In this document: positions 153 through 23,800 of the stretch, in pieces
Layout of the letters: every line of letters starts with the position of its first letter
How positions within the stretch are numbered: the first letter of the stretch is position 1
Source of the DNA: a virus
Virus record (IMG/VR): IMGVR_UViG_3300025846_000008
Coordinates: 1-37,881 of that record
Strand: one strand, 5' to 3'
DNA: 37,881 bases
Translations under genes and position numbers: made by a program
Notes under the pieces: generated by a model
Database searches by the model: none
What the model saw: the letters and a program-made list of their open reading frames with translations, nothing else
Told to the model about the DNA's origin: nothing

Positions 153-316
153 TAGAGGCCGACATGCACGAACGCTACGGCATAGACATGAGTGAGCCGG
201 GCCTGCTCGAGCGGCGCCCCAGCCGTTGGCTGCGGGTGCGCATCCTCGGCCTGCTCGGCGTCGATTCGCGGCTACTCGATGCACTGACGAAGCCGCAGGA
301 GGTGAGTAAGCCATGA
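2..316 (+). CDS. Tail assembly chaperone gpT-like extension (-1 frame, gpGT product)
   Basis: The frame beginning at position 2 is open to TGA 314-316. It encodes a plausible folded domain with a Trp-rich, acidic helix (WYDFSEDD, then WPDILEHWELIEADMHERYGID) and a final arginine/leucine-rich helix. It has no convincing start of its own, lies -1 relative to the upstream chaperone frame, and overlaps the tape measure start (ATG 313) by four bases. This is the standard layout of the frameshifted second chaperone of lambda-like tails, fused to the upstream protein by -1 slippage. The fusion would be about 225 residues. The domain is seen directly; the frameshift is inferred. Confidence 0.72.
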   Translation, partial: PEPSGPPQQEYQGYGEVDPASGLYRWYDFSEDDAPGPGATWPDILEHWELIEADMHERYGIDMSEPGLLERRPSRWLRVRILGLLGVDSRLLDALTKPQEVSKP

Positions 317-2655
317 TGACCGTCGGCGAGCTGGTTGCCTACCTCAGGCTCGACGACGGCCAGTTCAACCGCGGTCTCGACCAGGCTCACAGCAAGATCG
401 GCCGCGTCGGTGGCGCGATAGGTACAGCGGTCAAGCGCGGCGCAGTGGTCGCCGGGGTGGCCATCGCTGGCCTCGTCGGCACAACCCTCGTCAAGGGCTT
501 CAAGCGCCTGACTGCCATAGAAGACGCGAGTGCATCGCTGCGGGGGTTGGGGCACAGCGCCGAAGAGGTCACGCTCATCATGGCCAGCGCGCGGGAGGCC
601 GTCCTGGGGACCGCCTTCGGCCTCGACGAAGCCGCCAGTATCGCTGCAAGTTCGGTCGCTTCCGGTATCAAGCCGGGTCAGCAGCTTGAGTCGACCCTGC
701 GGCTGGTGGCCGACGCAGCGACGATCGGCAAGACGTCCCTGGGCGAAATGGGAGCGGTGTTCAACAAGGTCGCCGCATCAAACAAGATGCAGGGCGACGT
801 TATGGCCCAGCTCAACGACACGGGCATCCCGATCCAGCAGTTTCTCGCCAAGTCTTTGGGCGTGACGATCGACAAGGTCTACGAGCTGTCGAAGGCCGGG
901 TCGATCTCCTTCCCAATGTTCGCTAAGGCAATGAAGGAGGGGCTCGGCGGCGCCGCGCTGGCGTCCGGCAACACAACCATTGGCGCATGGAAGAACATGG
1001 TGACCGCGCTGTCGCGCTTCGGCGCCGATGTCCTTTCGGGCATCTTCCCCAGCTTCAAGGTCGCCTTCAACAAGGTCGGCGCCTACCTCGACCAGCTCGG
1101 CAAGAAGTACAGCCCGATATTCAAGGCGTGGGGCGAGAAGGTGTCCGCCGCCTTCAAGACAGGCGGCTTCACGGGCATGTTCAAGGCCATGCTGCCCGCC
1201 GGCGTAGGCGACACCCTCATCACGACCTTCAACGTCATCAAAGACACCACGGTCACCATCGTCAGGGTGATCGGTACTATCGCCGGCGTGTTCGGCAAGC
1301 TGCCCGGCGCGCTGCAGAAGTTCGCCATCGGGGCCGGCGTGCTGGCACTGGCGCTGGGCAAGTTCGGCCTCCTGGGCAGTGCCAAGGGCCTCTTCGGCGG
1401 CCTCCTGGGCAAGGTCGGCGGCGGCGCGGCCACAGAGGTGCCGCTCACGACCGCTGTCGGGCTCAACACGGCGGCCACTGAGGCGAACACGCTGGCGCTG
1501 CTGAAAGGTGGCATTTTGGGCGGCGGCGGCAAGACGGTGGCTACTCCGCTTACGCCGAAGCCGCGAACCTTCTACGTGGACTCAGCAGGAAACACGACCA
1601 CAACCAAGCCCGCTCCCGTAGTCCCGCAAGGGTCACTGGGGCGCCGGGACGTTGGTATGTTCGGTGGCATAGTGGCGTCGATAGCCGTTGCGACCGGGCT
1701 GGGCGTCATTGTGGATGCCTATGACAAATGGAAAGCGTCAGCCGACGAAGCGGCTGCATCCTCGGACACCGCAAGCGCCGCCCTCAAAAGGAACGCCGAC
1801 AAGCTTGGCCCCGAGTTCGTCGCGAAGATGCAGGACGCTATCAACCGCGACACCTACAAGTCGCCGGGAGTCGGAGGTTGGGCAAAATCCTTCGTTGAGG
1901 GGAACTTCGACACCTGGATAAAGCCGCTCTGGGAAGGCCTCCAGGGCCACAAGGTCGGCGAAGAGGAGGGGAAGAAGACCGCGAACGCCTTCGCGGAATC
2001 ATTCAAGGCCGGCATCACTCCCGCCTCGATGAGCCTGCACGGCGCCGGCCTCCTACGGGGCCTCGACCCCGCCATCCTGAAGACGCGCGAGAAGCTTGCT
2101 GTCCTGCGGCAGGAGTTGGCGAAGAAGAACAAGCTCGGCGACACGAACACCGCCTCGACGACGACGGCCATCAAGCGCGTCGAGAAGCATCTTGCGGACC
2201 TGCGCGCCAACGCTGCGAAGCCGGCGCACACCGGGCGCCTCAATACGAGCGGCTGGACCGGCCCGATCAGCGCCGCGATGCAGCGGCTCCTCGAGTTCCG
2301 CGACCTCTCTTCTCAGGGCATCACGCCCGGCAGCGTGAGCCAGCACAAGAGCTGGACGAAGGCGAACGCGGCGCCCGCCCCCGTCTGGCGCGCTCCTGGC
2401 CATTTCGAGGCCGCCGGCGGCGACTTCATGGTGAGCAAGCCCACACTGTTCGTCGCTGGCGAGGCTGGACCAGAGCGTGCCACCTTCACGCCGAAGGGCA
2501 AGGTACCTCCGGGCACCTCTGGCGGCGGCGACGTTCACGTCCACATCGGGCAGCTCGTCGGCACCGACGAACGCGCCGCGCGACAGCTCGCCGGCCAGGT
2601 AGGTCAGATCCTCATGAGCAAGCAGCGCCTCAAGGGGGCGATGAGCCGTGGCTAA
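313..2655 (+). CDS. Tape measure protein
   Basis: A 780-residue tail length determinant that runs through the tail tube and is later ejected. The N-terminal segment (MTVGELVAYLRLDDGQF) is typical of tape measures. Hydrophobic stretches lie near residues 36-57 and again around 310-370 (an Ile/Val-rich run followed by a Gly/Leu-rich run), which may insert in the host membrane. The C-terminal part carries the common motif GGDFMVSKPTLFVAGEAGPE, which is followed by a basic end. The start ATG at 313 overlaps the stop of the chaperone extension, and its position directly after the frameshifted chaperones is diagnostic. By the usual rule of about 0.15 nm per residue the tail would be near 115 nm, which is only an estimate. 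Confidence 0.95.
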   Translation: MMTVGELVAYLRLDDGQFNRGLDQAHSKIGRVGGAIGTAVKRGAVVAGVAIAGLVGTTLVKGFKRLTAIEDASASLRGLGHSAEEVTLIMASAREAVLGTAFGLDEAASIAASSVASGIKPGQQLESTLRLVADAATIGKTSLGEMGAVFNKVAASNKMQGDVMAQLNDTGIPIQQFLAKSLGVTIDKVYELSKAGSISFPMFAKAMKEGLGGAALASGNTTIGAWKNMVTALSRFGADVLSGIFPSFKVAFNKVGAYLDQLGKKYSPIFKAWGEKVSAAFKTGGFTGMFKAMLPAGVGDTLITTFNVIKDTTVTIVRVIGTIAGVFGKLPGALQKFAIGAGVLALALGKFGLLGSAKGLFGGLLGKVGGGAATEVPLTTAVGLNTAATEANTLALLKGGILGGGGKTVATPLTPKPRTFYVDSAGNTTTTKPAPVVPQGSLGRRDVGMFGGIVASIAVATGLGVIVDAYDKWKASADEAAASSDTASAALKRNADKLGPEFVAKMQDAINRDTYKSPGVGGWAKSFVEGNFDTWIKPLWEGLQGHKVGEEEGKKTANAFAESFKAGITPASMSLHGAGLLRGLDPAILKTREKLAVLRQELAKKNKLGDTNTASTTTAIKRVEKHLADLRANAAKPAHTGRLNTSGWTGPISAAMQRLLEFRDLSSQGITPGSVSQHKSWTKANAAPAPVWRAPGHFEAAGGDFMVSKPTLFVAGEAGPERATFTPKGKVPPGTSGGGDVHVHIGQLVGTDERAARQLAGQVGQILMSKQRLKGAMSRG

Positions 2656-3055: not shown

Positions 3056-3442
3056 ATGGCCTGCACACAGTACGAAGCCAACTTCCGCTTGAAGGCCGCC
3101 CTGCACGGCACCGCCTACCAAGGCCCGGCCTCCTACTGGGTGGAGCTCGTCTCCGACGCGCCGAGTCGCACGCTGGCCGGCACTCCGTCGGGTCTCGGTC
3201 GTATCCAGCTCGTCTGCGCAACGGGCGTCACGGACAACGGCGACGGCACCGCAGGCAACGCTGCCGTGTGGACCTTCCCGGCGCCGGCGACCGACCTCGA
3301 CGAGTGCTCGTACCTCGAGCTGTGGGACGCCGAGGTTGCCGGCAACCGGCGCTTCTTCGACCTGCTCTCCAGCCCAGTCGCGCCACTGGCCGACCTAGCC
3401 GTGACCGTGCCCATCGGGAACTTCACCTGGATGGAGGTCTGA
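3056..3442 (+). CDS. Small tail fibre-type protein
   Basis: 128 residues, ATG preceded by the strong ribosome site AAGGAG. The pattern of an N-terminal helix (KAALHGTAYQGPASYWVEL), a central segment ending NAAVWTFPAPATDL, and a C-terminal strand pair ending PIGNFTWMEV matches a family of small beta-rich proteins often annotated as phage tail fibre proteins. These occur once or several times between the tape measure and lysis genes. The exact position in the virion cannot be read from the sequence. A short relic resembling its C-terminus follows at 3444-3515. Confidence 0.6.
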   Translation: MACTQYEANFRLKAALHGTAYQGPASYWVELVSDAPSRTLAGTPSGLGRIQLVCATGVTDNGDGTAGNAAVWTFPAPATDLDECSYLELWDAEVAGNRRFFDLLSSPVAPLADLAVTVPIGNFTWMEV

Positions 3443-3516: not shown

Positions 3517-4863
3517 GTGGCGACGCGCTTCTACCTGCCATCGTCGGGCACATCTCCACTTGACAGCCTCGCCGTCGCGGGCGGATGGGGTGGGGCTGGC
3601 GCGAACTTCCTGCGTCTGCCCACGAGCATCACGAAGTCGGACACGGCTGGAGTGAACCTTATAGGCCGTATCCCCAGCGCCGAAACGTATTCGCTCTGCC
3701 ATGCCCAGTTCATCTCCGCGCCGCTCGCCACTGCGCACGACTTCACTGCCGAGGAGACGGCGAGCATGGTCGTCTCCGTTCAGGAGACTAGTGGCTCCTC
3801 GAACGCATTCCTGGCAGCCGTCGTCCGCGTCGTCAGCGGTGACGGGTCGACCGTGCGCGGGACCATCCTCGACCTGCGCACTGACTCTGGCGGGGTCGAA
3901 TGGACCACCGCCTATCGCACGCGCATCTGGGGCTCGCTGCCACTCGCGGTGGTGAGTGCCTCTGCGGGCGACCGCATTGTCATCGAGCTCGGTGCTTACT
4001 GCTTATTGCCGACCGTTTATACGAGCGACTTGGGGATGACACTTCGCGACGTAGTAGCGACCGCCGACTTCGCTCTCACGTCCAACTTGTCGACCCTCCT
4101 CTGCCCGTGGGTGGAACTCTCGCCAACACTGAGCTTCAGCGGGGGAGAAGTACCACCGGCGGGACCCGCTTTCCGCTCCGTTGCAGCCGTAGTCGGTAAC
4201 ACCAACGTTACAAGCCTCGCCGTGGCGAAGCCCGCTGGTCTTGCCGTGGGCGACCTGATGATCGGCTGGATCGCATACAACGGGGACAGGCCCGGTTACC
4301 CGAACCTTCCCAGTGGGTGGACCGACATCACCACGGTCGGTACCTACGGCTACAGCACGGTGGGACGGGCGTTCTACAAGTACGCGGATGCGGCCGATGT
4401 GGCGGCCTCCACCTTCACCTTCACGATACCTTCGACCGGCGCGTATCCGAGGGCCACCATCATCGCCTTCTCTGGCGCGGTCTACGACACGCACGCGGAC
4501 GCTCAGAACGCGAACGACACGCCGGGGACCACGCTCACGGTCGGCACCGTGACGCCCGCCGAGAGTGACGAGATGTGCGTTCTCCTCTCCTCGTGGTACA
4601 GCAGCTCTTCGGCGACGTGGAGCACGCAGGCGGTCGCGACCGACAACCCGACGTGGACCGAGGACGTAGACACGATGCGGCTTGGCGTGGCTCACGCCGT
4701 CCGCTCGTCCAGTGCCGCAACGGGTAACTGGACAGCGACTCTCTCGGAGCCGCTCACGTGGTGCGGCGTTGCCATCCTGCTCAAGACCGGCGAAACACCG
4801 CCGGCGGGCGGCACCACCCTCCCGCTGATGACCGACCATTACTCCCGCATGAGAAGGGGCTGA
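3517..4863 (+). CDS. Tail structural / fibre protein, two beta-rich domains
   Basis: 448 residues from a GTG start. The N-terminal domain (about 1-205) begins MATRFYLPSSGTSPL, an opening I associate with phage virion proteins of otherwise unknown role. It ends in a core rich in Thr, Ser and Val. After a short Pro/Gly linker (about 208-215) a second beta-sandwich-like domain follows (about 216-425, with WIAYNGDRPGYPNLPSGW and TATLSEPLTWCGVAILLKTG), similar to jelly-roll modules of fibre proteins. The end is a short basic tail. The gene sits in the minor tail cluster. A role in the tail tip or host contact is inferred. Confidence 0.6.
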   Translation: MATRFYLPSSGTSPLDSLAVAGGWGGAGANFLRLPTSITKSDTAGVNLIGRIPSAETYSLCHAQFISAPLATAHDFTAEETASMVVSVQETSGSSNAFLAAVVRVVSGDGSTVRGTILDLRTDSGGVEWTTAYRTRIWGSLPLAVVSASAGDRIVIELGAYCLLPTVYTSDLGMTLRDVVATADFALTSNLSTLLCPWVELSPTLSFSGGEVPPAGPAFRSVAAVVGNTNVTSLAVAKPAGLAVGDLMIGWIAYNGDRPGYPNLPSGWTDITTVGTYGYSTVGRAFYKYADAADVAASTFTFTIPSTGAYPRATIIAFSGAVYDTHADAQNANDTPGTTLTVGTVTPAESDEMCVLLSSWYSSSSATWSTQAVATDNPTWTEDVDTMRLGVAHAVRSSSAATGNWTATLSEPLTWCGVAILLKTGETPPAGGTTLPLMTDHYSRMRRG

Positions 4864-4864
4864 A

Positions 4865-5740
4865 ATGACGCAATGGCTGAAGCAGAACACGGCTACCGAT
4901 AGGAAGATTGGCCCCTTCATCGACGACACGGACGGGAAGACCGCTGAGACGGGTCTGACCACCGCCTACACCCTCATCTATCTCAGCAAGAACGGCGGCG
5001 CGCTCACGGCCAAGCACGAGACCACGGCCATCGCTCACGACGCGCTCGGCTACTACCTGTGCAAGCTCGACGCCACCGATACGAACACGCTGGGCGCGCT
5101 CAAGGTTGCTACCCACGTTGCCGGGCACCTGCCCGTGTGGCATGAGTTCATGGTCGTGCCGGCCAACGTGTGGGACTCGTTCTTCGGAGCCTCCCTGCTC
5201 GTGGTCGACGCTGCGGCAGTCAAGACTGACTCGGCGGCCATCCTCGCCGACACTGGCGAACTCCAGACCGAGTGGGCCAACGGCGGCAGGCTCGACTTGA
5301 TTCTCGACGGAGCCAGTGCTCCGGCAGCGACCACAGTCGCCGATGCCGTCTGGGATGAAGCTCTGAGCGGACACGCGGCCGGCGGCTCGGCTGGTGCTGC
5401 GCTCACGGGTGCCGGTTCCGCCGGTGACCCCTGGACGACCACGCTACCCGGTGCCTATGGCGCTGGCACGGCCGGGGCGGTCATCGGCGGTATCCCGGCA
5501 GTCAAGGCCGATACGGCGGCCATCCTCGCCGGCATGGGCGGAACTACGCCGGAGGCGGCTCTGACGCTGGCCTTGAAGCTCCTACGCAACAAAGTTGTCA
5601 CGGACCCCGCTACCGGCGTGATGACCGTCTACGATGACAACGGCACCGACGTGCTCTACACCGCGAACGTCTACGAGGACGTCGCCGGGACGATGCCCTT
5701 CGACGGCAGCGGCGCCAACAGGCGGGACAGGCTGGCGTAA
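4865..5740 (+). CDS. Tail fibre / baseplate-associated protein
   Basis: 291 residues. The N-terminus (MTQWLKQNTATDRKIGPFID, then TVTY-type strands and PVWHEFMVVPANVWDS at about 90-105) is a conserved module of phage adhesion proteins. It is followed by a helical collagen-like region with repeated AVKTDSAAIL / AVKADTAAIL segments and VADAVWDEALSGH, a motif found repeatedly in fibre shafts. The C-terminal 50 residues carry a DPATGVMTVYDDNGTDVLY strand unit. Two bases separate it from the preceding stop. Receptor contact is inferred from module type and position; the specific ligand cannot be told. Confidence 0.65.
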   Translation: MTQWLKQNTATDRKIGPFIDDTDGKTAETGLTTAYTLIYLSKNGGALTAKHETTAIAHDALGYYLCKLDATDTNTLGALKVATHVAGHLPVWHEFMVVPANVWDSFFGASLLVVDAAAVKTDSAAILADTGELQTEWANGGRLDLILDGASAPAATTVADAVWDEALSGHAAGGSAGAALTGAGSAGDPWTTTLPGAYGAGTAGAVIGGIPAVKADTAAILAGMGGTTPEAALTLALKLLRNKVVTDPATGVMTVYDDNGTDVLYTANVYEDVAGTMPFDGSGANRRDRLA

Positions 5741-6010
5741 GTGAGCACGCTGCTACTCAGGGGGCTGGGCGACACCAGCGACACGCTCGTACTTGGCGGG
5801 CTGGGCGAGGGCGAAGAAGCACCCGTGATCGTGACCGAGCTGTCTTGCGCCATGGTGAACGGCGCCGAGTTTGAGGTCGAGCCGGACCAGCGCGCCGCCA
5901 CGATGACGACCGGATGTGACATGTGGAACGGCGCGCGTCTGCATGCCCGAGCGTTGCGTGAAGGGGTCGTGCTGCCGCCCACCGACGACCTCGGCTGGAC
6001 GGCGCCATGA
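5741..6010 (+). CDS. Small hypothetical tail-region protein
   Basis: 89 residues. The GTG start touches the preceding TAA, and the stop overlaps the ATG of the next gene (ATGA). The N-terminus has Gly/Leu repeats (LLRGLGDTSDTLVLGGLGEG), followed by a short strand-rich part. There are no membrane segments or catalytic motifs. Its position and coupling suggest a structural or assembly role in the tail tip. I do not recognise the family. Confidence 0.5.
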   Translation: MSTLLLRGLGDTSDTLVLGGLGEGEEAPVIVTELSCAMVNGAEFEVEPDQRAATMTTGCDMWNGARLHARALREGVVLPPTDDLGWTAP

Positions 6011-6411
6011 CCGTCACGGCCTCGCCGCTCTGGGACCTCACCGTGGCCATCGCCGGTCAGCGCATCCCGAACGCCACATTCACCTCGTTCACCATCGAGC
6101 TCGACTGCCACGGTGGCTTCGAGTCCTGCGCGATCTCGTTCGCCAGCAAGCGCACGCGCAAGTGGCCGAGCCGTGCACCGATCGTCGTGGCTTATGACGG
6201 CATGCACCCCTTCGAGGGTCACCTGGCGACGCAGCGCCGGTCCGTCGGCACGGAGCTGGGCTGGTCGCTGGAGTTCGTCGGCAACCTCAACGACCTGCGC
6301 GACCACCGGGCATTCCGCCGCGTATACGTGGACTCCAACCTTGATAATTGGCGCAGCGACCAGGGGCCGAACACGGCAGCAAATGTCTTCGAGGTAACGG
6401 CCAGTGAGTAG
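6007..6411 (+). CDS. Tail-tip protein, N-terminal fragment-like
   Basis: 134 residues. It is beta-rich, with DLTVAIAGQRIPNATFTSFT followed by a segment that ends in EFVGNLNDLRDHRAFRRVYVDSNLDNWRSDQGP. In tail-tip proteins that I recall, this kind of domain does not end here. It continues through FEV into a region with a YYPLFDG-type motif and then a long C-terminal part. Exactly such a continuation appears in the gene at 7093. The protein therefore looks like the N-terminal part of an ancestral gene now cut by the gene at 6404. The stop TAG lies inside an eight-base overlap with the next GTG. Confidence 0.6.
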   Translation: MTVTASPLWDLTVAIAGQRIPNATFTSFTIELDCHGGFESCAISFASKRTRKWPSRAPIVVAYDGMHPFEGHLATQRRSVGTELGWSLEFVGNLNDLRDHRAFRRVYVDSNLDNWRSDQGPNTAANVFEVTASE

Positions 6412-7096
6412 GGAAATTCGCATAGGCGCGACAGAGCCCATATCTGACGCCACCGCCTTCGCCGTCTCCCGCGACAGTGCGGGCATCCTCATCGGCGTGC
6501 GCGACAACGCCGCGCCGCAGTTCTCGGTGAGCAGGGACGCGGGCGGGCTGTTGCTGAGTGCGCGGCCGAGTGCGCCGCCGCCGCCGCCGCCGCCGCCGAC
6601 CGCCTACGTCGCTAGCGGTTATGTACTCGGCACGGGCGCCACGGCCGTTTTCAACCTGCAGATACTCTACTGGAACATCTTCCTCAGGACGTTGTGGGGG
6701 AGTGTTGTCACCGCCCCGATCACTACGTCGTTGACCGATTGGCGCAGGATATACGTCACTGCCCCTATCCCGGAAAACGCGGTCTACGTCTCGATGGTGA
6801 TCACTTGCCCCATGGAGTCCCCGGCGGGGGCGTACTGGACGGCCATGCAGATGGAGGGCGGCACGGTGGCAAGTGCCTACAGGGTCGGCGGCGCGAACCT
6901 TGCTCTGAATCCCGAGTTCACGCCGGACCTCTCCTACTGGACTCCGCTCTATGCGGGTGTCTTCTCCCGTGCGACCAGCTTGCCGTCTGCGCCGCTCCCC
7001 GGCGTTACGACGGCGCTTGAGTACGTGTCGGACGGCTGGGATTCGAGTGTGTGGTACGAGGTCACCCACCAAGCTATCGCACTGCCAACATCATGA
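6404..7096 (+). CDS. Inserted tail-tip module with polyproline linker and carbohydrate-binding-like domain
   Basis: 230 residues, GTG start. The N-terminal 60 residues contain two similar segments (ATAFAVSRDSAGILIGVRDN and PQFSVSRDAGGLLLSARPS). Eight consecutive prolines follow, encoded by eight CCG codons at 6575-6598. The rest is beta-rich with AVYVSMVITCPMESPAGAYW and NLALNPEFTPDLSYWTP, a pattern typical of jelly-roll carbohydrate-binding modules in tail proteins. It lies exactly between the two halves of a likely split tail-tip gene and ends in an ATGA overlap with the second half. Ligand binding is inferred. Confidence 0.55.
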   Translation: MSREIRIGATEPISDATAFAVSRDSAGILIGVRDNAAPQFSVSRDAGGLLLSARPSAPPPPPPPPTAYVASGYVLGTGATAVFNLQILYWNIFLRTLWGSVVTAPITTSLTDWRRIYVTAPIPENAVYVSMVITCPMESPAGAYWTAMQMEGGTVASAYRVGGANLALNPEFTPDLSYWTPLYAGVFSRATSLPSAPLPGVTTALEYVSDGWDSSVWYEVTHQAIALPTS

Positions 7097-8223
7097 CCGA
7101 ACCGACGAACACCCCACGTGCCTCCGCCCGTGTCTACTACCCGCTGTTCGACGGTGTCGACCCCGAGGGGCAGGAGCAGCGCATCCGGGCGCTCGACATG
7201 GTGCTGAAGATAGGCGGCAAGAAGGCCGCTCTCGCGACGAATTACCAGGTGAGCATCTACGGCCGCACACACATCGAAACGCCGACCCTCGTCACCATCT
7301 TCCGGCGCGTCGTGGAGCGCGCCGCCGGGGCGGCCTGGGTGACGGTGCCGGTGCGCCGCGAGATCGACCATGCCTCTGTCCACTGCATCGTGCTCAAGCT
7401 AGAAGAGATGGCGACGGGCTTCACCCCGCCGGCCGACCCGACGGCGACCTACACCTATGACGACCAGACGACCACCGCAGACCCGCCGCCGTGGGGCGTG
7501 CGTCTCAAGAGCTACTCCCTCTACGCCTCCGACCTCCTGCGGAACGTCACGGCGCCGCGCGTGCTCGCCCACATCGTCGAGCCCTACTACCCGGACGCCA
7601 CGTTCCCGGCGAGCAGCCTGCAGTTCGACCAGATGGCGTTCGTCGAGCTGCCGCGCGACCGCTGGGACGCCGTCGACGACGTGATCGCGATGATGGGCTG
7701 GGACTACCAGGTGTGGGACGGCAACGAGCTCACGTTCGTCGACCCCGACGACGCGGTCGCGGTGTCCATCCCCAAGGAGCATGCCGGCGTCAAGTGGACG
7801 AACGGCCCCGACGAGTCCGACGCCTTCAACGCGGTGCGCGTGCAGTACACCTCCAAGCGCGGCATGCCGCGCGAGGTCATCCTTCACGGCACGCTCAAGC
7901 TTGGCGGCGACGTGGTGTCCGACACCATCACGGCGCCCGACTCGGTGGTCAGCAAGGCCGGCGCCATGCGCGTCGGCCGCCGCTGGCTGAAGGCACACGG
8001 CCGCGTGCCGAACGTCGGCGATATCACCGTGACCGGTACCGGTCCGTGGGGCGACGCGCTGAAGCTGCGGCCGGACAACAAGCGCGTCGGCAAGGAGAAG
8101 ATCAGCCACGTCACGCTGAACCCGCTCGACTGGAGCGCGACCCTGCAATTCGGCGTCAACGTCGACTCCTATGAGGCGTGGATCGCGCGGCTCGCGGCCG
8201 GCGCACATGCGCGGAAACGATGA
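7093..8223 (+). CDS. Tail-tip / minor tail protein, C-terminal part
   Basis: 376 residues from the ATG at 7093. I chose this start because it forms an ATGA overlap with the preceding stop; an in-frame GTG exists at 7051. The N-terminus ARVYYPLFDGVDPEGQEQRI resumes the domain that breaks off at 6411. Strand-rich repeats follow, with LRNVTAPRVLAHIV, then DDVIAMMGWDYQVWDGNELTF, and a C-terminal domain ending LDWSATLQFGVNVDSYE. The architecture fits a baseplate-hub-like or minor tail protein. It is the last gene of the tail block before the lysis genes. Confidence 0.65.
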   Translation: MTEPTNTPRASARVYYPLFDGVDPEGQEQRIRALDMVLKIGGKKAALATNYQVSIYGRTHIETPTLVTIFRRVVERAAGAAWVTVPVRREIDHASVHCIVLKLEEMATGFTPPADPTATYTYDDQTTTADPPPWGVRLKSYSLYASDLLRNVTAPRVLAHIVEPYYPDATFPASSLQFDQMAFVELPRDRWDAVDDVIAMMGWDYQVWDGNELTFVDPDDAVAVSIPKEHAGVKWTNGPDESDAFNAVRVQYTSKRGMPREVILHGTLKLGGDVVSDTITAPDSVVSKAGAMRVGRRWLKAHGRVPNVGDITVTGTGPWGDALKLRPDNKRVGKEKISHVTLNPLDWSATLQFGVNVDSYEAWIARLAAGAHARKR

Positions 8224-8233
8224 GGAGCCGACG

Positions 8234-8707
8234 ATGACCACGACCTATCTCCCCCTTGCCTCCATCCTCGTGGCCGTCCTGGGTCTGGTTGCTACCTACT
8301 TCGGCTTCGTGGTCAAGGTGCGGGAAGACATCGCGAGCATCAAAAGTACGTGCGTTGGACGCGCCCGCACCACCGACTGTCTGCCGCAGCTACAGGCCGA
8401 TGTGGCGAAGCTGACCGCTAACGACGACGTGTTCTGGCGCGTGCTGGGACCGAGCCTGGGAGGAATCATTCATAGCCCTGTACACATACGCAGAGACCAG
8501 CTCATGGACGAGTGGCTGGCGGCGCCGAAAGGAAAGATTCCCGAGGCCGACCTTCGCGAGCTGCGCGACGAGCTGGAGCAGATGTTGGATGAGGCTGTTG
8601 CCGGAAATAGCGTCAACTTGCAGCTCATTGGAGCGATGTTGCTCGGTCGCCTAGAAGTACAGATCGAGGCTCTGGAGCGGGCCGAATCTCAGAACAAAGG
8701 AGCATAG
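8234..8707 (+). CDS. N-anchored membrane protein with coiled-coil tail
   Basis: 157 residues from the ATG at 8234, chosen because GAGGAG precedes it; longer in-frame starts would run into the tail gene. One transmembrane segment lies at residues about 6-28 (LPLASILVAVLGLVATYFGF). A helical, charged region follows, predicted by eye to form coiled coils near 95-150 (Leu/Glu-rich). The topology recalls phage accessory lysis proteins such as antiholin-like or spanin-like membrane proteins. No lipobox or diagnostic motif is present, so the lysis role rests on its position upstream of a second membrane protein and the endolysin. Confidence 0.55.
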   Translation: MTTTYLPLASILVAVLGLVATYFGFVVKVREDIASIKSTCVGRARTTDCLPQLQADVAKLTANDDVFWRVLGPSLGGIIHSPVHIRRDQLMDEWLAAPKGKIPEADLRELRDELEQMLDEAVAGNSVNLQLIGAMLLGRLEVQIEALERAESQNKGA

Positions 8708-22645: not shown

Positions 22646-23800
22646 ATGGGGTGGACGTATCGGCTGCCGGACGGACGCTGGAGGGCGTTCGAGTCGGAGG
22701 GTAGTGGAGCAGGCAGGACGCAGGCGAATGCGATTCGCCGGCTCCAGCATGACGCCGTATCTGCGGCCCGCATCCGGCTCACCGACAAGCTCAAGCACCA
22801 CGGCCGTCCGTCTCACTCCGGCGAGACCTTCAAGAAGTTGGTCGCCGACTTCCGCGACCTGCACATGGTTGAGCTCTCGCCGACCACGCAGACCGGCTAC
22901 GAGTCGATCCTGCGCCGCCACCTCGAGCCGTACTTCGGCAAGGACGTCGCCGCCGACATCGACCCGACCGAGGTGCTCAAGTTCAAGGCCGCCAAGCGCC
23001 GCGCCGGCCTCTCGGCGATGACCGTCGAACATCACCTCTCGTGCCTGCGCTCCGTGTTGTCGTTCGGGGTGCGCACCCGGCGCCTCGAGTGGAACGCCGC
23101 CGAGGCTGTGAAGGGTAAGAAGCCGCGGCCCGGGAATCCACGGCGGTCACTCTCGCAAGACGAGGTGAAGAAGCTGCTCGCGGGGGCGCTCGCTCTGCGG
23201 GGCCGCATCCCAAGGCGCAAGGGTGGCGAGCGCGACGACCTCTACGGGCCGGCGCTCGCCGGTCTCTGCGCCGGCCTGCGTCGCGGCGAGGTGCTGGCCC
23301 TCAGGTGGCGCGACATCGACCTGGCGGCCAGCGCTCTCTATGCCCGTCACAACCTCGTGCAGGAGAAGGGCAGGGGGCCGGTGCTCAAGCTGACCAAGGC
23401 GGACGGGGAAGAGGTGCGTCCGGTGCTCTTGCCGGCCGTGGCGGTGGACGCGCTGCGCGCCGAGCGGCTGCGTCAGAAGAAGCGGGCGCTGCGGGAGCGC
23501 GGCTGGAACCCGCAGGGCATCGTCTTCCCTGGCAAGCGCGGCGCCTGGCGCGTCCCCGACACGCTCACGCACCACTTCGCCGACCTGCTCACGGCGCTCG
23601 GTATCGAGGACGCCGACTTTCATACCCTGCGCCACACGCACGCCACCTGGCTGCGCGACGACGGCATTGACCCGCTGACGATCCGCGACCGTCAGGGGCA
23701 TGCCGACGTGAAGACGACGGAGGGCTACCTGCACGCCAAGCTGGCGGTCCAGGAGTCGGCGGCGGCGAGCCTGCAGAAGCGACTTGTGCCGCGCCAGTAG
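22646..23800 (+). CDS. int: Tyrosine integrase
   Basis: 384 residues. Residues 1-55 form an arm-binding-type N-terminal domain (WTYRLPDGRWRAFESEG), 60-160 the core-binding domain (TFKKLVADFRDLHM, LEPYFGKDVAADI), and 168-384 the catalytic domain. Catalytic residues are Arg212 or Arg213 (GLRRGEVLALRW), Lys251, His326 and Arg329 (FHTLRHTH), His352 (GHADVKTTEGYLH) and the nucleophile Tyr361. It joins phage attP and host attB. The attP lies 220 bases downstream and copies a tRNA-Arg end, as usual for this family. The start ATG lacks a ribosome site and may be leaderless. Confidence 0.95.
   Translation: MGWTYRLPDGRWRAFESEGSGAGRTQANAIRRLQHDAVSAARIRLTDKLKHHGRPSHSGETFKKLVADFRDLHMVELSPTTQTGYESILRRHLEPYFGKDVAADIDPTEVLKFKAAKRRAGLSAMTVEHHLSCLRSVLSFGVRTRRLEWNAAEAVKGKKPRPGNPRRSLSQDEVKKLLAGALALRGRIPRRKGGERDDLYGPALAGLCAGLRRGEVLALRWRDIDLAASALYARHNLVQEKGRGPVLKLTKADGEEVRPVLLPAVAVDALRAERLRQKKRALRERGWNPQGIVFPGKRGAWRVPDTLTHHFADLLTALGIEDADFHTLRHTHATWLRDDGIDPLTIRDRQGHADVKTTEGYLHAKLAVQESAAASLQKRLVPRQ

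Follow-up and report, generated by a model that had tools for sequence, protein, structure and literature searches.

Gene layout of the locus

The window, that is, the whole DNA stretch analyzed, is an IMG/VR virus record of 37,881 bases. Its putative hub locus lies downstream of the tape measure gene, toward the end of the tail operon, and consists of three genes (hereafter A, B, and C) that overlap at both joints, as the initial annotation had described. The coordinates of these genes and of their parts are listed in Table 1. The Shine-Dalgarno-like motif ahead of B was also found in the relatives L002 and L005 to L008. Compared to L002, A was 85% identical (dN/dS of 0.25), B was 62% identical (0.49), and C was 86% identical (0.34). 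All three are thus preserved under purifying selection and represent real genes rather than chance open reading frames (ORFs). The YYPLFDG segment said to open C is indeed present near its start, but it occupies residues 15 to 21 and not the first positions.

Table 1. Features of the putative hub locus and of the upstream tail genes in the window
Feature	Positions	Strand	Remarks
Tape measure gene	313-2655		Upstream of A; PF20155 (3.6e-17) and several PHROG tape-measure matches
Gp80 fibre match	3056-3442		Among smaller upstream tail genes; PF23140 (3.8e-11)
N-terminal beta-repeat segment of A protein	5741-6010	+	89 aa; an ORF of its own in the window lineage
A	6007-6411	+	134 aa; ends with NWRSDQGPNTAANVFEVTASE and the stop
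A, residues 1-99	6007-6303	+	Presumed first hub barrel; co-varies with the C hub part; breakpoint at residue 99
A tail, residues 100-134 and stop	6304-6411	+	Presumed first part of inserted domain
GAGGT, Shine-Dalgarno-like	6391-6395	+	8 nt before B start; doubles as E-V codons of conserved FEV
A/B start/stop overlap GTGAGTAG	6404-6411	+	8 nt; read from sequence
B	6404-7096	+	230 aa; PPPPPPPP is residues 58-65
B N-terminal tag and two-copy repeat module FAVSRDSAGILIGVRDNAAPQFSVSRDAGGLLLSA	6404-6574	+	Common to B proteins of other loci
Polyproline linker	6575-6598	+	8 Pro
B presumed jelly-roll domain	6599-7093	+	C-half about 6599-6892, N-half about 6893-7093
B/C start/stop overlap ATGA	7093-7096	+	4 nt; read from sequence
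C	7093-8223	+	376 aa; begins with MTEPTNTPRASARVYYPLFDG
C head, residues 1-147	7093-7533	+	Beta-rich, presumed inserted; seven strands in model; breakpoints at residues 138-154
C hub part, residues 148-376 and stop	7534-8223	+	gp27/gp44/gpJ-type by Foldseek and by profile matches in relatives

Conservation of the split among relatives

Scanning IMG/VR with profiles and patterns yielded 15 distinct loci with readable A and C (the window, L002, L005, L006, L007, L008, L021, L023, L024, L040, L042, L045, L048, L053, and L067), while a few contigs outside this set carried A or upstream genes only. A was located upstream of C in all 15 loci, at identities to the window down to 27% for A and 32% for C. 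Unlike a gp27/Tal-type hub, which is a single polypeptide chain, A and C were different ORFs in every one of these loci, with one to five ORFs between them. Most loci harbor a single ORF in this gap; the largest slot seen, with about five consecutive ORFs, was that of L021 (positions 5423 to 8455). The term "interrupted" used in the initial annotation implies a recent event. Since this split is common to 15 of 15 diverse loci, it is no recent interruption.

The overlaps at both joints, and the fact that A and C are in the same reading frame in the window, would be compatible with one polypeptide still being made, programmed frameshifts joining A, B, and C. However, the frame change from A to B is not conserved: the A/B joint is an 8-nt overlap in 5 of the 15 loci, corresponding to a +1 shift, and a 4-nt overlap (RTGA) in the other 10, corresponding to a -1 shift. 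The B/C joint consists of an overlap or of a short gap of at most 30 nt, the latter value being reached in L005 (for L048, the start of C is not certain); several of these joints are gaps, and the junction sequences are unlike each other. Because the direction of the shift differs between relatives, we rejected programmed frameshifting, which we regard as highly improbable.

We also considered that the split might reflect decay or a sequencing error, the hub gene being degraded or misassembled. Indeed, a published survey that encountered a hub gene present as two coding sequences in one plasmid prophage judged it to be probably non-functional, unless a sequencing error was the cause (PMC8026635), and an additional split in the window, between A and the ORF preceding it, stems from a small indel. 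Against this stand the presence of the A|B|C split in 15 diverse loci, the start codons at the joints, the purifying selection described above, and a second assembled contig, identical over 12,690 bases, in which the window junctions are the same. This explanation is hardly credible, and a split hub gene alone is no sign of a dead phage.

The additional split affects the N-terminal beta-repeat segment of the A protein. This segment and A form one ORF in L002, L005 to L008, L012, L019, L021, L023, L024, L045, and L048. At the joint, the window reads GCGCCATGACCGTCACGG where L012 reads GCGCCGGATGCCACGG, a net change of +2 nt that creates ATGA. This case illustrates how a gene can be divided such that start and stop overlap, and the A|B|C split may have arisen in a similar manner.

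Similarity of C to tail hubs and the place of A

Hub proteins are central to the phage tail and normally consist of one chain. The C protein of the window had no significant profile match of its own, but C of L021 was over the PF13550 cutoff (3e-5), and other relatives weakly matched YQBQ, phrog_177, and phrog_52. The matching zone in these proteins covers residues 144 to 340 approximately. The phrog_177 matches start at C residues 143 to 149, that is, at profile positions 174 to 182 of 623, indicating that C lacks an N-terminal stretch of the hub; similarly, the YQBQ (PF24032) match starts at about position 123 of 294.

A structure model of C built from a 14-sequence alignment reached a mean pLDDT of 69 and a pTM of 0.43 (a model from two sequences only, with a pLDDT of 32, was useless). 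Comparing this model to the PDB with Foldseek returned 30 chains at E values of 0.001 or below. Tail hubs ranked at the top, comprising lambda gpJ (1.6e-9), the T1 tip (2.9e-9), the MuSo2 43-kDa protein, and Mu gp44, along with VgrG and injection-system spikes. Given the low TM-scores to these hubs (0.24 to 0.32 of the query) and the pTM of the model, the hub assignment rests on local similarity and the placement of domains is unreliable. The weak profile matches and the Foldseek results together predict that C is a gp27/gp44/gpJ-type tail hub devoid of its N-terminal stretch. For A, there was no convincing match in Pfam, PHROGs, or PDB sequences.

To relate A to C, we correlated the identity matrices of their sub-segments across 14 loci. 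A residues 1 to 100 co-varied with C residues 148 to the end (r = 0.927), and A residues 101 to 134 co-varied with C residues 1 to 147 (r = 0.850). The cross pairs between A and C gave r values of 0.562 and 0.555, and the two segments of C gave 0.623 with each other. In line with these segments, A of the window and A of L005 to L008 are about 31 to 32% identical before residue 99 and 88 to 94% identical after it, while C is 77 to 80% identical before residues 138 to 154 and 39 to 41% identical after them. The A breakpoint fell at residue 99 in four of four comparisons and the C breakpoints fell between residues 138 and 154 (permutation p <= 0.001). These sharp breakpoints indicate that an inner block, made of the A tail, B, and the C head, was transferred from one hub backbone to another.

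The co-variation of hub with hub and of insert with insert fits a protein split inside an inserted domain and lends indirect support to this idea. It is, however, no proof of a joint fold, since the A tail, B, and the C head adjoin, and the exchange of one such contiguous DNA block would also produce the pattern. From its position, its invariable pairing with C, and this co-variation, we infer that A corresponds to the missing barrel of the hub.

Alternatively, A and C may never have been one chain. C would then represent a complete, shortened hub whose N-terminal beta domain is its own, A would be an independent tail protein of Dit-like or collar type, and B would be found between them by ordinary tail-operon order. 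This would be in agreement with the lack of a hub profile match for A, with the outcome of the homologue searches reported below, and with the Foldseek alignments of C, which span most of some hubs (e.g., 389 columns versus the 325-residue Mu gp44 chain). On the other hand, the matches to C begin well past the first positions of the hub profiles, the start of A correlates with the hub part of C more closely than the C head does, and the breakpoints in A and C are sharp. We consider this alternative unlikely, but serious enough to be kept in mind.

No single-chain A+C homologue was detected by sequence in tblastn searches of phage records with A and C, in two pattern scans of GTDB contigs, or among IMG/VR contigs. 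Similarly, none was found in profile searches, run without a positive control, of 396 Actinomycetota genomes (C and A profiles) and of 396 genomes of a second phylum, that of G002 (C profile). The full-length homologue expected to join the two proteins was therefore not recovered by sequence in these phage-record, genome, and IMG/VR collections, and neither was any related protein whose A segment continues into YYPLFDG. The initial annotation had taken the lack of a single chain covering both pieces as speaking against its reading, and at the sequence level, within these collections, this lack is what we found.

Several candidates were discarded. A tblastn match in Streptomyces phage phiRKBJ001 corresponded to an "oxidoreductase" in the replication region and was taken as chance. 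The GTDB pattern scans gave five matches, of which only L059, a membrane protein harboring a chance motif, also matched locally. An actinobacterial hub-like protein (L078) matched the C profile (0.0022), but hhalign gave no signal for A. Searches of 149 genomes with YQBQ and PHROG 177 returned too few proteins to build a single-chain profile.

The variable B slot and a proposed two-chain hub

The repeat module of B can be found at either end of the protein, being C-terminal in L006 and L008, and the other B contents vary between loci. L006 carries a glycine-rich domain (PF21722, 9.3e-10), L005 and L023 gave BNR/sortilin-like propeller matches, and the domains of other loci are unassigned. L019 and L023 have a propeller start in common (78% over 152 columns). 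B of the window matched no Pfam family at E values up to 1 and no CBM profile. Of the polyproline and jelly roll initially ascribed to it, the eight prolines are present, but the jelly roll is without Pfam support.

We presume a jelly-roll character from a swapped-half match to the L008 domain, itself CBM-like by eye. The N-half of the window domain scored 81 against the L008 N-half and 27 against the L008 C-half, while the C-half scored 57 against the L008 C-half and 30 against the N-half, and none of 2,000 shuffles reached 57. Because the halves match in swapped order, the B domain of the window and L002 appears to be circularly permuted relative to that of L008. Rather than a one-off carbohydrate binder, B is one occupant of a variable slot. 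Its position, its variability, and the types of domains found there point to a receptor-binding protein.

We hypothesize that the locus encodes a two-chain tail hub (Tal/gp27-like) with a nested, exchangeable receptor-binding gene, which we consider the probable explanation. A would supply the first hub barrel and the beginning of an inserted beta domain, and C would supply the remainder of both this domain and the hub, the two chains presumably deriving from the fission of one. Coupled translation at the overlapping or nearly touching genes would lead to A, B, and C being made together, possibly in the equal amounts proposed initially. A and C would then fold into a single, probably trimeric hub, to which B would be attached nearby through its two-repeat module while contacting the host surface. 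More tentatively, the essential hub of this clade of uncultured phages may be permanently split within the inserted domain, the gap serving as a docking site for exchangeable receptor-binding genes. The conserved flanks would guide the recombination of entire recognition cassettes, and the halves would reassemble around or with any binder; we hold this broader scenario to be possible rather than probable.

The proposed hub shares features with three known systems. The weak matches of C in relatives and the C model liken it to the gp27/gp44/gpJ-type hub (Tal; PHROG 177, YQBQ PF24032, Phage-tail_3 PF13550), but here two ORFs are involved, with one or more other genes between them, and the hub part follows a beta domain of about 150 residues. 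Extra beta domains on a tail-tip core are also known from the evolved Tal and Dit proteins of siphophages of Gram-positive bacteria. In evolved Tal, described as single proteins, CBMs lie within the gp27-like N-terminal domain (PMC7291167), and in evolved Dit of siphophages, domains are inserted in Dit (PMC8540738). These additions are described as belonging to one chain, whereas the presumed inserted domain is here divided over two genes, with separate genes in the gap. Finally, like modular receptor-binding proteins with interchangeable heads, B combines a conserved anchoring module with swapped domains. Unlike in these proteins, the module can occupy either terminus, and the gene is flanked by two hub genes.

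A literature search of partial coverage turned up no description of a conserved two-gene hub harboring nested genes. If our explanation is true, a stably split hub with nested binding genes would represent a natural split-protein assembly in the virion, and it would suggest a route for exchanging host-recognition parts without breaking the core.

Further variable regions were observed upstream of the locus. Positions 3517 to 4863 represent a second variable slot, in which the domains differ between relatives and the C-terminal tag MTDHYSRMRRG is the same in L008 and L012. The gene at positions 4865 to 5740 is another mosaic tail gene, its first 127 residues being 91 to 93% identical in L008 and L012 and its middle being different. 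Elsewhere in the window, a 384-amino-acid ORF (positions 22646 to 23800) resembles a tyrosine integrase by eye, which suggests a temperate phage.
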